In this document: piece by piece, positions 2,332-6,814 of the stretch | Numbering within the stretch: position 1 is the first letter of the stretch | Layout of the letters: each line of letters starts with the position of its first letter | Assembly (NCBI GenBank): GCA_025936615.1 | Contig: JAICSZ010000123.1 | Span: 1 to 6,814, forward strand | DNA length: 6,814 nucleotides | Direction of reading: 5' to 3' | Origin: Pedococcus sp. | GTDB lineage: Bacteria > Actinomycetota > Actinomycetes > Actinomycetales > Dermatophilaceae | Position numbers and translations under genes: made by a program | The notes under the pieces: model-generated | Told to the model about the DNA's origin: nothing | Seen by the model: the letters and a program-made list of their open reading frames with translations, nothing else | Databases searched by the model: none

Positions 2332-3378
2332 ATGACCGGGCTCCCGTTCCCCACGACGCGCGACGATTCACGTGCGCCCGAGGGTCTCGTGGGCCTGCCC
2401 GACCAGTTCGGTCGGGTGGCCCGTGACCTGCGCGTGTCGGTGACCGACCGCTGCAACCTGCGCTGCCGCTACTGCATGCCCGCCGAGGGCCTGCCGTGGC
2501 TGGCCAAGCCCGAGATGCTCAGCGACGACGAGCTCGTGCGCGTGGTCGGCGTGTTCGTGGGGCTCGGGGTGCGGCAGGTGCGGCTCACCGGTGGTGAGCC
2601 GCTGCTGCGCCGCTCGCTGGTCGACGTCGTCCGGCGCATCGCTGCCCTCGAGCCTCGACCGCGAATCGCGATGACCACCAACGGTGTTGGGCTGGACCGG
2701 CTCGCCCAGCCGCTCGCCGATGCCGGACTCGACCGGGTCAACATCAGCCTCGACACCGTCGACCCCAAGGAGTTCGCCGACCTGACCCGCCGCGATCGGC
2801 TGCACGATGTCGAGGCAGGCCTCAAGGCAGCGGCCACCGCGGGGCTCACCCCGGTGAAGGTCAACGCCGTGGCGATGCGCGGCATCAACGACCACTCGGT
2901 GGGCGAGCTGCTCCAGTGGTGCCTCGACCGTGGTTATGAGCTGCGGTTCATCGAGCAGATGCCGCTCGACGCCCAGCACGGCTGGGACGCCTCGACGATG
3001 GTGCCCGCTGCCGAGGTGCGCGAGCGGCTCGAGGAGCGGTTCACGCTGACCCCGCTGGGGCAGGCCGACCGCGGCAGCGCGCCCGCCGAGCGGTTCCTCG
3101 TGGACGGCGGCCCGCAGACGGTCGGCATCATCGCGAGCGTCACCGCACCCTTCTGCGCGGCGTGCGACCGCACCCGGCTCACCGCGGACGGTCAGGTCCG
3201 CAACTGCCTGTTCTCCCGGCGGGAGACGGACCTGCGCGGGCCGCTGCGCGACGGCGCCTCCGACGACGAGCTGGCTCGGCTCATCCAGGGCGAGATGTGG
3301 CGCAAGGCGCGTGGGCACGGCATCGGGACGCCGGACTTCGTGCAGCCGGACCGCCCGATGTCCTCCATCGGCGGATAG
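2332..3378 (+). CDS. moaA: GTP 3',8-cyclase MoaA
   Basis: 348-residue radical SAM enzyme that, with MoaC, converts GTP to cyclic pyranopterin monophosphate, the first step of molybdenum cofactor synthesis. The N-terminal [4Fe-4S] cluster motif CxxxCxxC is Cys41, Cys45 and Cys48 within TDRCNLRCRYCMP. The SAM-binding motif TGGEP is at 86-90. The second cluster, which binds the GTP substrate, is ligated by Cys275, Cys278 and Cys292, with the conserved RTR motif at 280-282. The protein ends in the conserved Gly-Gly (347-348) that supports catalysis in characterised MoaA. All key residues are present and the length is normal with a short N-terminal lead of about 25 residues. The ATG at 2332 fits a leaderless -10 box. 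No other moa or moe genes are in view, so the gene appears solitary here, divergent from SURF1 and convergent with the 70-residue gene 39 bases downstream. Confidence 0.98.
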   Translation: MTGLPFPTTRDDSRAPEGLVGLPDQFGRVARDLRVSVTDRCNLRCRYCMPAEGLPWLAKPEMLSDDELVRVVGVFVGLGVRQVRLTGGEPLLRRSLVDVVRRIAALEPRPRIAMTTNGVGLDRLAQPLADAGLDRVNISLDTVDPKEFADLTRRDRLHDVEAGLKAAATAGLTPVKVNAVAMRGINDHSVGELLQWCLDRGYELRFIEQMPLDAQHGWDASTMVPAAEVRERLEERFTLTPLGQADRGSAPAERFLVDGGPQTVGIIASVTAPFCAACDRTRLTADGQVRNCLFSRRETDLRGPLRDGASDDELARLIQGEMWRKARGHGIGTPDFVQPDRPMSSIGG

Positions 3379-3417: not shown

Positions 3418-3630
3418 TCACCCGGCGGTCGGCGGGACCTGAGACGCCGGCACGGTGTCCTTGAGGAACCCGCGCAGCGACAGGAACTCACCCAGGCTGG
3501 TGCGGTGCTCCTCGCAGGCGAGCCACACCTTGCGGCGCTCGGGGGTGTGCAGCTTGGGGTTGTTCCACAGGTGGGCCCAGGCGGCGGGGCGGCGGCAGCC
3601 CTTGGCGCTGCAGACGAGGTCGGTGGTCAC
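3418..3630 (-). CDS. Small Cys/His protein, possible zinc-binding
   Basis: 70-residue cytoplasmic protein of unknown function. Cys7, Cys12, Cys39 and His42 form a CxxxxC then CxxH pattern that could bind one zinc ion. Between them lies a Trp/Asn-rich stretch (AWAHLWNNPKLH, 17-28), followed by a basic patch (ERRKVW). The C-terminal part (GEFLSLRGFLKD) could be a short helix. The GTG start at 3630 overlaps the stop codon of the DUF3099 gene as GTGA, indicating translational coupling in a two-gene unit. From memory, similar small actinobacterial proteins are sometimes labelled 'acetone carboxylase' in databases. Nothing here supports that enzyme, which is a large multisubunit complex. The coding call rests on the coupling, codon bias and the orderly metal-site-like motif. 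Confidence 0.8.
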   Translation of the reverse strand: MTTDLVCSAKGCRRPAAWAHLWNNPKLHTPERRKVWLACEEHRTSLGEFLSLRGFLKDTVPASQVPPTAG

Positions 3631-3947
3631 CGCTCGAGCTGCTCGGGGTCGTCGTCACCGGGCCACACGGGTGGCAGGACCTCCTCCTCGAAGCCCGCCG
3701 ACGCGGCGTTGGCGAACACCACCGCGATGTAGGGAAGCACGAGGGCCAGCACGGCCATCGACCCCCACACCCACCACGGCGCGCCCACCATGCCGGCGAT
3801 GACCGCGCCGACGAAGCAGGCGGTGCGGATGCCCATGGTCAGCAGGTAGCGGTGAATCCGGTGCGCCTGGTCCTGCGCCAGCGACTCCCGCGCGGTCGTC
3901 ACCGACTGCACCGGCTCGCGGTGGTGGCTGCGGTGGAGGTGCGGCAC
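3627..3947 (-). CDS. DUF3099 family small membrane protein
   Basis: 106-residue integral membrane protein of the actinobacterial DUF3099 family, function unknown. The N-terminal tail is His-rich (HLHRSHHR, 3-10). The family-like segment VQSVTTARESLAQDQ (13-27) leads into RYLLTMGIRTACF (33-45). Two hydrophobic helices follow, at about 40-54 and 57-79, the second containing VLPYIAVVFAN. The tail is acidic (GDDDPEQLER). The frame stays open upstream to 4439, but that part lies antisense to fabG. The GTG at 3947 is chosen because TATGGT lies exactly six bases upstream (leaderless geometry) and the family-like sequence begins just after it. An in-frame GTG at residue 12 is the alternative. The gene is divergent from fabG and coupled to the downstream 70-residue gene. 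The family assignment is from remembered motifs. Confidence 0.82.
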   Translation of the reverse strand: MPHLHRSHHREPVQSVTTARESLAQDQAHRIHRYLLTMGIRTACFVGAVIAGMVGAPWWVWGSMAVLALVLPYIAVVFANAASAGFEEEVLPPVWPGDDDPEQLER

Positions 3948-3996: not shown

Positions 3997-4769
<773 letters not shown>

Positions 4770-4770
<1 letters not shown>

Positions 4771-4817: not shown

Positions 4818-5576
4818 ATGCTGCTCGAGGGCAAGAAGCTGCTGATCACCGGGGTGCTGATGGACTCCTCGATCGCCTTCCACGTCGCGAAGATCGCGCA
4901 GGAGCAGGGCGCCGAGGTCGTGCTGACCTCGTTCGGCCGGACCTTCCGGATCACCCAGACCATCGCCAAGCGGCTGCCGAGCACCCCGCCGGTCGTGGAG
5001 CTCGACGTCACCGACCAGTCGCACCTCGACTCCCTCGCCGAGCGGCTCGGCGAGCACGTCGACCGGCTCGACGGCGTGCTGCACTCGATCGGGTTCGCCC
5101 CGCAGGGCGCGTTCAACTTCATGGAGGGCACGTTCGAGGACGTCTCCACGGCGATGCACGCCTCGGCCTACTCGTTGAAGTCGCTCGCAGCGGCCGCGCT
5201 GCCGCTCATGACCGAGGGCGGCAGTGTCGTCGGGCTCACCTTCGACGCGAAGTTCGCCTGGCCGGTCTACGACTGGATGGGCGTCGCGAAGGCGGCGTTC
5301 GAGTCCACGAACCGCTACCTCGCCCGCGACCTGGGGCCCAAGGGGATCCGCTGCAACCTGGTCTCCGCCGGCCCGATCCGCACCACCGCGGCGAAGTCGA
5401 TCCCGGGCTTCCAGGCGTTCGAGGACACCTGGAACACGCGCGCCCCCCTCGGCTGGGACGTCAACGACGCCGTGCCGGCGGCCAAGGCGTGTGCTGCGCT
5501 GCTGTCCGACTGGTTCCCCGCGACCACGGGCGAGATCGTGCACGTCGACGGCGGTGTGCACGCCATGGGCCAGTAG
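4818..5576 (+). CDS. fabI: Enoyl-ACP reductase FabI (InhA-type)
   Basis: 252-residue NADH-dependent enoyl-ACP reductase catalysing the last reductive step of each type II elongation cycle. The nucleotide-binding part reads ITGVLMDSSIAFHVAK (10-25), with LDV at 62-64 and HSIGF at 89-93. Ser90 corresponds to InhA Ser94. The catalytic triad by InhA alignment is Phe142, Tyr151 and Lys158, with exact InhA spacing (9 and 7). AGPIRT (184-189) and RAPLGW (208-213) flank the substrate loop. That loop is about ten residues shorter than in mycobacterial InhA, which suggests normal-length rather than mycolate-precursor substrates (inference from remembered sequences). The C-terminus has LLSDWFPATTGEIVHVDGG like InhA. 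It lies 47 bases after fabG, surely in the same operon, and its stop codon shares its last base with the next start. Confidence 0.97.
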   Translation: MLLEGKKLLITGVLMDSSIAFHVAKIAQEQGAEVVLTSFGRTFRITQTIAKRLPSTPPVVELDVTDQSHLDSLAERLGEHVDRLDGVLHSIGFAPQGAFNFMEGTFEDVSTAMHASAYSLKSLAAAALPLMTEGGSVVGLTFDAKFAWPVYDWMGVAKAAFESTNRYLARDLGPKGIRCNLVSAGPIRTTAAKSIPGFQAFEDTWNTRAPLGWDVNDAVPAAKACAALLSDWFPATTGEIVHVDGGVHAMGQ

Positions 5577-6814
5577 TGCCCGGCACGTCCGGTCGCTCCG
5601 GCTCGTCCGTCCCGTCGGTCGAGATCACGGAGGTCCGGGTCCTCGAGGGGCCCAACCTCTACTTCGCCAAACCTGCCATCAAGGTCACGCTCGAGCTGCC
5701 CGGCTACCTCGCGGCTGACGAGGCGGTGCTGGCGGCGCTGGGCTCCCGGATCGGGCTGCGCTCGTCCCGCGTGGGCGCCCCCGGCACGGAGCAGCGCCAG
5801 CGGTTCACGATGCGGGTCGTCGAGCGCGGGGTGCGCCGCCTGGCCGCGGCCTCCGGCACCACCCGGCTCGGCGTGCGGACCCGGCCGGGGAGCACGCCAC
5901 AGACGGTCGTCGTCGCGTTCGTCTGGCGCCGGCGCGGTCGCGCGCGTGCGCTCGGCCACGAGGTCGGGCCGGTCCTGCAGGCGTGGCTCGAGGGCGGCGA
6001 CGTGGTCGAGGAGCAGGCGCTGCTCATCGGCCGCACCGAGCCGGGCGAGCGACCGAACGTGCTCAACCCCACCATCCCGGTCGCCTCCGTCACCGGCACC
6101 AACGGCAAGACGACCACCACCCGCCTCCTCGGCCACATCGGCATGACCGCCGGCCGGTGCACCGCGTGGTCGTCCACCGACGGCGTCGTGGTGCAGGGCG
6201 AGGTGGTCGAGCCCGGCGACTACTCCGGCCCGGCAGGGGCACGTGCGGTCCTCGGCGCCCCCGGCGTCCAGCTGGGCATCCTCGAGACGGCGCGCGGCGG
6301 CATGCTGTTGCGGGGCATGGGTGTCTCTGCCAACGACGTCAGCGTCGTCACCAACGTCTCGGCCGACCACCTCGGCCAGCAGGGCATCGACACCGTCGAC
6401 CAGCTCGCCGAGGTCAAGGCGATAGTCACCAAGGCAACGCGACCCGGTGGGTGGGTGGTGCTCAACGGCGAGGACCCCCGGGTGTGGGCGATGCGAGCAG
6501 GCGCCAAGGCCAGGCCGTGGGCGTTCGCGATCCGTTCCGACGCCCCGGCCCTGCGTGAGGCGATCGACCAGGGTGGCCGGGCCATCACCGTCCTCGACGG
6601 GGACATCACCGTCCTCCAAGCGGGCAGGGACCCCGACCGGCTGGTGAGCATCCTCGACGTCCCCGCGACGCTCTCGGGCCTGTCGAAGCACAACATCGCC
6701 AACGCGCTCGCCGCCACGGCCGCGGCCCTCGGTCTGGGCCTGCCCCGCGCGGCGGTGGTGCAGGGCCTGCGGACCTTCGCCCCCGACGACCGGCTCAACC
6801 CGGGGCGGATGAAC
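5576..6814 (+). CDS. CphA-like Mur ligase lacking ATP-grasp (3' partial)
   Basis: First 413 residues of a ligase that continues past the right edge. Residues about 14-165 resemble the N-terminal domain of cyanophycin synthetase: VRVLEGPNLYF (20-30) and LGVRTR (98-103) match its LRGPN and GFGRTR signatures. The Mur-type domain starts near 168. It has P-loop TGTNGKTTTT (173-182), ETARGG (237-242, metal-binding Glu), TNVSADHLG (259-267), the probable carbamylated Lys281 in EVK, NGED (298-301), NIANALAA (373-380) and NPGRMN. These are CphA Mur-domain motifs rather than MurC-F. The ATP-grasp domain lying between the two in CphA is absent. It should activate a carboxylate as acyl phosphate and join it to an amine, but the substrate is unknown. 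GTG 5576 overlaps the fabI stop as TAGTG with no good ribosome site, implying coupling to fabI. MurT is less likely because of the N-domain. Confidence 0.9.
   Translation, partial: MPGTSGRSGSSVPSVEITEVRVLEGPNLYFAKPAIKVTLELPGYLAADEAVLAALGSRIGLRSSRVGAPGTEQRQRFTMRVVERGVRRLAAASGTTRLGVRTRPGSTPQTVVVAFVWRRRGRARALGHEVGPVLQAWLEGGDVVEEQALLIGRTEPGERPNVLNPTIPVASVTGTNGKTTTTRLLGHIGMTAGRCTAWSSTDGVVVQGEVVEPGDYSGPAGARAVLGAPGVQLGILETARGGMLLRGMGVSANDVSVVTNVSADHLGQQGIDTVDQLAEVKAIVTKATRPGGWVVLNGEDPRVWAMRAGAKARPWAFAIRSDAPALREAIDQGGRAITVLDGDITVLQAGRDPDRLVSILDVPATLSGLSKHNIANALAATAAALGLGLPRAAVVQGLRTFAPDDRLNPGRMN

Follow-up and report, generated by a model that had tools for sequence, protein, structure and literature searches.

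A CphA-like Mur ligase without an ATP-grasp domain is encoded beside cyanophycin synthetase genes in Actinomycetota

Introduction

Cyanophycin is described as being made by a single enzyme (PMC9427784). According to PMC9262961, 83% of CphA1 synthetases (at 70% non-redundancy) carry the zinc motif Cx19HxxEH, which makes them primer independent, and CphA2, a shortened CphA relative whose N-domain is without that motif, polymerizes β-Asp-Arg dipeptides. The subject of this study is a gene at the 3′ end of a 6,814-nucleotide stretch of Pedococcus sp. DNA (contig JAICSZ010000123.1), which was analyzed as a whole and is referred to as the window. The gene encodes an N-domain/Mur ligase protein without ATP-grasp, for which we use the working name MURL. 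MURL corresponds to the N and Mur parts of a CphA1-like enzyme, placed as in CphA1 and with the ATP/Mg site of the Mur domain kept.

In comparison with CphA1 (TIGR02068; PDB 7lg5, 7wae, 7lgm, and 7lgn), MURL has the same N fold, the same Mur fold, the same mutual placing of the two, and the same Mur catalytic residues, whereas the ATP-grasp G domain, which adds Asp in CphA1, is missing, the zinc-peptidase motif is gone, and the loop and pocket of the Mur domain are changed; the closest MURL relatives of the window protein have an additional TPR tail. The N-domain fold of CphA2 (PDB 7ta5, 8fxh, and 8fxi) also matches that of MURL, and both are without the zinc motif; however, the solved CphA2 chains match the ATP-grasp region of CphA, and MURL is the reverse cut, with the Mur half kept and the ATP-grasp domain gone. 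MurE-type ligases carry a UDP-binding N-domain. In contrast, MURL has a CphA-type N-domain, and MurE and the pseudomurein peptide ligases lie on a separate tree branch.

Results

The first-pass annotation of the window had described an open reading frame at 5576..6814 as a CphA-like ligase, a natural N-domain/Mur fusion with a working Mur active site and no ATP-grasp domain. Our results supported this interpretation overall. On the forward strand, which carries all MURL features given below, the frame is open from a GTG at 5576 to the end of the window; these 413 codons are the 5′ part of a gene for ~736 residues that is truncated by the window edge. A contig from a Dermatophilaceae metagenome-assembled genome (MAG), L001 (L and G numbers denote the loci and genomes of this study), is identical to window positions 5315–6814 at 1495 of 1500 bases and completes the gene at L001 262–2472, giving a MURL of 736 residues. 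Pfam searches at E ≤ 0.01 matched the 736-residue protein to Mur_ligase_M, Mur_ligase_C, and a TPR_5 tail and found no ATP-grasp domain in it, so the absence claimed from the window piece holds for the completed protein. The window piece itself matched Mur_ligase_M alone (3.8e-17). Alignment over the full length reached into the TPR tail in 3 of the 16 MURLs of the class sample described below. The NCBIfam cyanophycin synthetase model TIGR02068 gave the window piece 283 bits, a good match confined to the Mur part, and gave two MURLs 340 and 344 bits; all of these scores are below the curated cut-off of 850.

The motifs VLEGPN (residues 22–27) and LGVRTR (residues 98–103), identified earlier as CphA-type, lie within the N-domain (residues 16–167; 5621..6076). 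The Mur ligase middle domain (PF08245, 3.8e-17) occupies residues 172–384 (6089..6727). The Mur P-loop does follow straight after the N-domain, as annotated, but GTNGKTT starts at residue 174 and not at 173 (residues 174–180; 6095..6115); its Lys178 is present in 48/48 MURLs and 34/34 CphAs. Because the N-motif runs straight into the P-loop in 48 distinct sequences from the fetched loci, the fusion is a natural one. Glu237 (6284..6286), equivalent to the Mg2+ ligand Glu558 of TeCphA1, and Asp264-His265 (6365..6370), equivalent to Asp585-His586 of SuCphA1, are found in 48/48 MURLs. Lys281 (6416..6418), the lysine of the AEVK motif, is presumably the carbamylated lysine of Mur ligases. The annotated positions of Glu237, His265, and Lys281 were correct, and all three residues of this predicted active site are invariant in an alignment of 52 homologues, composed of 37 of the 48 MURL loci and 15 of 120 listed database proteins (numbering offset, +15). 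These 120 were the best of 6168 proteins found at E ≤ 0.001, among 7996 scored, in a protein database search, a count made by score, whatever the domain layout.

The Pfam model of the CphA N-domain did not match MURL, either as the window piece or at full length, and profile comparison and structure were therefore needed. Comparison by hhalign of the MURL and CphA N-domains gave a probability of 77.7 (E = 1.9e-5). The AlphaFold model of the N-domain folded alone had a pLDDT of 94.9, and its best matches in the PDB were the N-domains of CphA1 and CphA2, with no other fold close; the resemblance to CphA claimed for this region was thus borne out by structure. When the model of full-length MURL was placed on CphA1, the N and Mur domains superposed jointly over 516 residues at 3.3 Å. 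In N-domain alignments of 30 of the 48 MURLs and 20 CphA copies, the zinc-peptidase site was erased in MURL: the first His was replaced by Arg in 30/30, and the Cys column was a gap in 27/30. Within their first 200 residues, the MURLs at the named loci examined likewise showed no HxxEH. The mean net charge of the N-domain was +8.6 in MURL vs. −4.7 in CphA.

The Mur domains of 48 MURLs and 34 CphAs were then aligned, and the residues compared were those tied to ATP, Mg2+, or catalysis in the SuCphA1 and TeCphA1 papers. N497, K499, E558, R731, and H748 of TeCphA1 and D585 and H586 of SuCphA1 were kept in 48/48 MURLs, and the Mg threonines T500 and T522 of TeCphA1 were each kept in 47/48. Three positions were near-constant within each family and yet differed between the families: S542 of SuCphA1 was Gly in 48/48 MURLs, R566 was Leu in 45/48, and N537 was an aromatic residue (Tyr, Trp, or Phe) in 48/48. 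The position of SuCphA1 E607, which the SuCphA1 paper places at the polymer site of the N-domain, was Glu in 34/34 CphAs and Lys or Arg in 41/48 MURLs. The SuCphA1 loop KEDDDKRGR had an acidic pair (ED, DD, or RD) in 31/34 CphAs; in 48/48 MURLs the Asp was replaced by Lys or Leu and a Tyr was added, HKxxYLRGR and ELxxYLRGR being two examples of the loop. The corresponding stretch of MurE carries its amino acid specificity motif. Because this loop, like a number of positions close to the site, is not as in CphA, the amino acid added by MURL is likelier to be one other than arginine, or else the acceptor is altered. From these residues we infer that the Mur domain has a changed incoming amino acid rather than being a dead enzyme, and addition of arginine to Asp side chains by MURL appears doubtful given the changes in loop and pocket.

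The kinship of the Mur domain was examined in a tree of 58 of 99 sequences, from which near-copies and repeats had been dropped; the tree is also without 4 of the 21 Mur-type loci, in which no frame showed the pattern. The 24 MURLs formed one group (support 93/98), and the 22 CphAs, including two cyanobacterial sequences and one from Acinetobacter, formed another (98/90). MURL and CphA together were split from the 12 other Mur-type sequences with support of 95/99. Of these 12, the 11 that represent MurC, MurD, MurE, MurF, and FolC scored above their family cut-off; the remaining one was MurT-like, with MurT as its best family at a score under the MurT cut-off. The MURL Mur domain therefore groups with CphA and not inside MurC, MurD, MurE, MurF, FolC, or MurT. 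Forcing MURL to group with the actinobacterial CphAs gave a tree 19.6 log units worse, with a p-AU of 0.18. The tree disfavors, without rejecting, a recent loss of ATP-grasp from an actinobacterial CphA, and the domain may instead have been lost early or never have been present. A distant N-Mur protein of 542 residues, ~31–35% like MURL, was seen at L142, L143, and L144, where it does not adjoin CphA; these proteins come from large genomes of the third sample described below that have CphA elsewhere.

In L001, the gene after MURL is convergent with it and encodes the C-terminal portion of CphA. In L002 (Phycicoccus sp. Soil802; MURL at 9956–12175) the neighboring CphA is complete, with 951 residues and a TIGR02068 score of 1150 bits (cut-off, 850), and keeps the ATP-grasp histidine equivalent to SuCphA1 H267 (located by manual counting); the gene behind it matched the cyanophycinase (CphB) model at 232 bits (cut-off, 126.6). 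The neighborhood thus contains both a cyanophycinase and a complete CphA carrying the ATP-grasp domain; the first-pass annotation had named a separate ATP-grasp partner as one of two possibilities. Among L001–L021, CphA was adjacent and convergent in 20/21 loci, the exception being L012 (Nostocoides jenkinsii Ben 74), whose genome has CphA at another place, and CphB was found in 16/21; L001, L011, and L015 end too early, and L021 ends inside CphA. The L021 CphA fragment was visible when the locus was read, and in the 57-locus comparison used below the best CphA match of that locus was MURL itself. The zinc motif Cx19HxxEH was present in 16/19 neighboring CphAs, the other three (L001, L011, and L014) being read without that region. 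For third-sample loci HxxEH was scanned in the first 230 residues of each frame, and two CphAs in long frames went unmatched, which is not evidence of absence.

To describe how widely MURL and CphA occur together, three genome samples were surveyed. In 148 genomes of the class of Phycicoccus, MURL was found in 16, full CphA in 20, and neither in 128. CphA was present in 16/16 genomes with MURL and in 4/132 without it (Fisher 4.4e-18, kinship ignored), and the 13 pairs on one contig were all convergent. In 396 genomes of the phylum Actinomycetota, MURL was found in 24, of which 21 also had CphA, and all 16 same-contig pairs were convergent. In the third sample, of 251 genomes, CphA was found in 17/17 genomes with MURL, again with all 13 same-contig pairs convergent. 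In total, MURL was found in 53 distinct genomes (the four shared by the class and phylum samples counted once), and 50 of these had CphA; pairs within 10 kb were convergent in 38/38 cases over all samples. Where MURL and CphA lay on one contig, CphB stood behind CphA in 19 of 20 loci, the twentieth being cut by the contig end (these are 20 of the 25 distinct same-contig pairs of the class and phylum samples), and in 12/12 fetched third-sample loci (of the 13 such pairs).

The class and phylum groups were drawn around G001, the genome of L002, and the third sample around G151 (contig L021, labelled Steroidobacteraceae). Because the draw around G151 was, except for the central genome, the same as that around a Candidatus Roseilinea genome (G152, L022), the third sample is probably Chloroflexota. 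The range of MURL thus takes in many Actinomycetota and probably extends to a second phylum. The candidates scored per genome were the seven best or five best in the class sample, the two best in the phylum sample, and the four best in the third sample, and misses are possible. Some of the MURLs counted were fragments: in the phylum sample G419, G401, and G333 (no N-domain), G294 (two pieces), and G195 and G284 (part of the N-domain missing), and in the third sample G624, G716, and some starting at residues 81–107.

Several single genomes showed other arrangements. One MAG, GZL_FP_2_bin.100, contains two MURL-CphA loci (L001 and L007) that are 70% alike over MURL, which reflects either a genuine duplication or a bin that mixes two strains. 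In Tetrasphaera australiensis Ben110 (L019) the 5′ part of MURL is missing at the locus, and a piece matching MURL residues 13–93, with an internal stop, lies ~1.9 Mb away. Three genomes with CphA and without MURL (G037, G013, and G055; loci L040, L041, and L042) each have two full CphAs; the second is 60–62% like the partner CphA, is missing the acidic ED loop, and reads like PSLVNLRGR at that place, and it could be a stand-in for MURL. At L090, L092, L093, L094, L101, and L102 a small protein is encoded near cphB that, by its first residues, looks like a SixA-type histidine phosphatase.

Upstream of MURL in the window, on the same strand, are the neighboring genes fabG (3-oxoacyl-ACP reductase, 4060..4770, identified by family matches, with the ATG at 4060 picked by eye) and fabI (enoyl-ACP reductase, 4818..5576; NCBIfam PRK07889, 431 bits, cut-off 299); neither is counted as a functional part. 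The stop codon of fabI and the start codon of MURL overlap as TAGTG (5574..5578, forward strand), and translation of the two genes is likely coupled. A fabI gene in the same direction was found upstream of MURL in 27 of the 57 loci with a MURL hit. Among the fetched loci it was found in 10/10 of the class sample, 0/10 of the phylum-only loci, and 0/12 of the third sample. This linkage varies, and the neighbors that stay with MURL are CphA and CphB. That MURL acts in fatty acid synthesis together with fabG-fabI is disfavored, as their linkage is lost beyond the class sample.

Another neighbor, found at 14 of the 57 loci (L084, L087, L088, L089, L100, L135–L141, L146, and L021) at E ≤ 1e-15, is an M20 peptidase (in L088 at 150–1361) that is most similar to carboxypeptidase G2 (PDB 1cg2, 7.5e-45). 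It was head-to-head with MURL in 14/14 and never occurred together with fabI; possibly it hydrolyzes what MURL makes, or β-Asp dipeptides. A partial M20 match at the contig end of L147 (1e-9) was below the cut. The rest of the window contains ordinary genes identified by family matches, namely the end of an ABC transporter gene (2–1435, forward), SURF1 (1448–2299, reverse), and MoaA (2332–3378, forward), and two small open frames on the reverse strand (3418–3630 and 3627–3947), the second of which has a DUF3099 relative in L002.

Discussion

We propose that MURL serves CphA as a dedicated companion ligase whose substrate is cyanophycin or one of its intermediates, probably with a changed incoming amino acid; with the reaction itself inferred, we consider this proposal evenly balanced between belief and doubt. 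The cleft between the Mur core and the basic N-domain of MURL, where CphA1 binds the polymer, would take up cyanophycin or an intermediate with a free aspartate at its end; the N-domain would act as a holder and not as a cutter. MURL would then phosphorylate a carboxylate with ATP, most likely that of an Asp side chain, and the activated carboxylate would be joined as an amide to an amino acid that is more likely not arginine, or else the acceptor is altered. The neighboring CphA would supply the Asp backbone, and cyanophycinase would take the polymer apart.

A MURL gene has apparently been encountered before. In the Tetrasphaera MAGs TET1 and TET2, two cphA copies were reported, the longer being more expressed than the shorter (PMC10687191, 2023); that paper treats both copies as cphA, and its main text never uses the word "domain". 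Since the TET1 genome (L014 is a TET1 contig) has exactly one MURL and one CphA match, the shorter copy is most likely MURL; if it is, MURL transcripts are present in reactors, yet the gene has been scored as cphA. Database names for MURL homologues among the matches listed are "cyanophycin synthetase" or "Mur ligase". In the literature searched, without most subscription papers, we recognized no description of a CphA companion lacking ATP-grasp.

Several observations weigh against a companion ligase. The N, G, and M domains of the partner CphAs look intact, leaving nothing obvious for MURL to do, and the shorter Tetrasphaera copy, probably MURL, was the less expressed. TeCphA1 F692, which stacks on adenine, varies in MURL (His in 26, Phe in 7, and others in 15). 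The role of the altered loop in choosing the amino acid is carried over from MurE and not from CphA. The association has exceptions: 4/20 CphA genomes of the class sample lack MURL, no CphA was seen in 3/24 MURL genomes of the phylum sample (in two, both scored slots were MURL pieces; in one there was no match), and MURL and CphA of Nostocoides jenkinsii Ben 74 (L012) are ~3.0 Mb apart in contig coordinates. The co-occurrence counts also ignore kinship.

Other roles have to be weighed against this one. MURL could be a second arginine ligase with the chemistry of the CphA M domain, finishing under-arginylated chains or raising the rate without a new product. Its catalytic residues are those of CphA, it stands beside CphA nearly always, and its basic N-domain could hold Asp-rich, under-substituted chains; however, the loop that is acidic in 31/34 CphAs is altered in 48/48 MURLs, as are the S542 and N537 positions and, in nearly all, R566, and the partner CphA has an intact-looking M domain of its own. 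We therefore regard this role as unlikely. It is rather improbable that MURL makes free β-aspartyl dipeptides, such as β-Asp-Arg, or short primers that start or recycle cyanophycin. A Mur ligase without ATP-grasp could presumably form only side-chain amides, and the M20 peptidase at 14/57 loci, none of them with fabI, is a possible dipeptide hydrolase; but an enzyme that uses free Asp would have no need of an N-domain that binds polymer, and the partner CphAs have the motif associated with primer independence in 16/16 readable copies (PMC9262961).

The TAGTG overlap in the window and the fabI gene upstream in 27/57 loci would suit a different pathway, in which MURL is an amide ligase for a lipid or cell-wall precursor, co-transcribed with fabG-fabI, and the nearness of cphA is old genome furniture. 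With fabI upstream in all 10 fetched class loci but in none of the 10 phylum-only and 12 third-sample loci, where CphA and CphB persist, and with no MURL seen without CphA in the class sample (16/16), we find this harder still to credit. Even less probable is a decayed CphA duplicate kept as a non-catalytic scaffold or CphA regulator. Such a protein might be expected from the lost zinc site, from the TPR tail of the window's homologue (with tail-inclusive alignment in 3/16 class MURLs), and from the lower expression reported in PMC10687191. Decay, however, would not leave the P-loop Lys and the Glu, Asp, His, Arg, and His of the Mur site in place in 48/48 MURLs, and nesting inside the actinobacterial CphAs is not the best tree, though it was not rejected (p-AU 0.18). 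An assembly error or frameshift that deleted ATP-grasp from an ordinary CphA, or a pseudogene, is ruled out for practical purposes by the 48 sequences of the same layout, the invariant catalytic residues, and the complete CphA adjoining MURL in most loci; nothing was found in its favor.

Cyanophycin metabolism probably has, in the companion ligase proposed here, a third enzyme that has been overlooked. As a near-obligate N plus Mur companion, it would make cyanophycin synthesis or tailoring in many Actinomycetota, and probably also in another phylum, the work of two proteins, and the polymer of these bacteria may differ from cyanobacterial cyanophycin. The naming would also need correction, because the wastewater study apparently pooled MURL transcripts with those of cphA (PMC10687191). 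More tentatively, and with less confidence than in a companion role as such, MURL may represent a third, undescribed class of cyanophycin enzyme in at least two phyla, a non-arginine side-chain ligase or cap that yields a modified polymer, with the N-Mur layout perhaps the ancestor that preceded insertion of ATP-grasp. If this is true, bacteria with MURL store a modified polymer, and MURL is a polymer-docking ligase acting on the product of CphA. The N-Mur layout, sister to all CphAs, may then preserve the enzyme that later gained the ATP-grasp domain, and MURL gives a direct test of the origin of the three-domain CphA.

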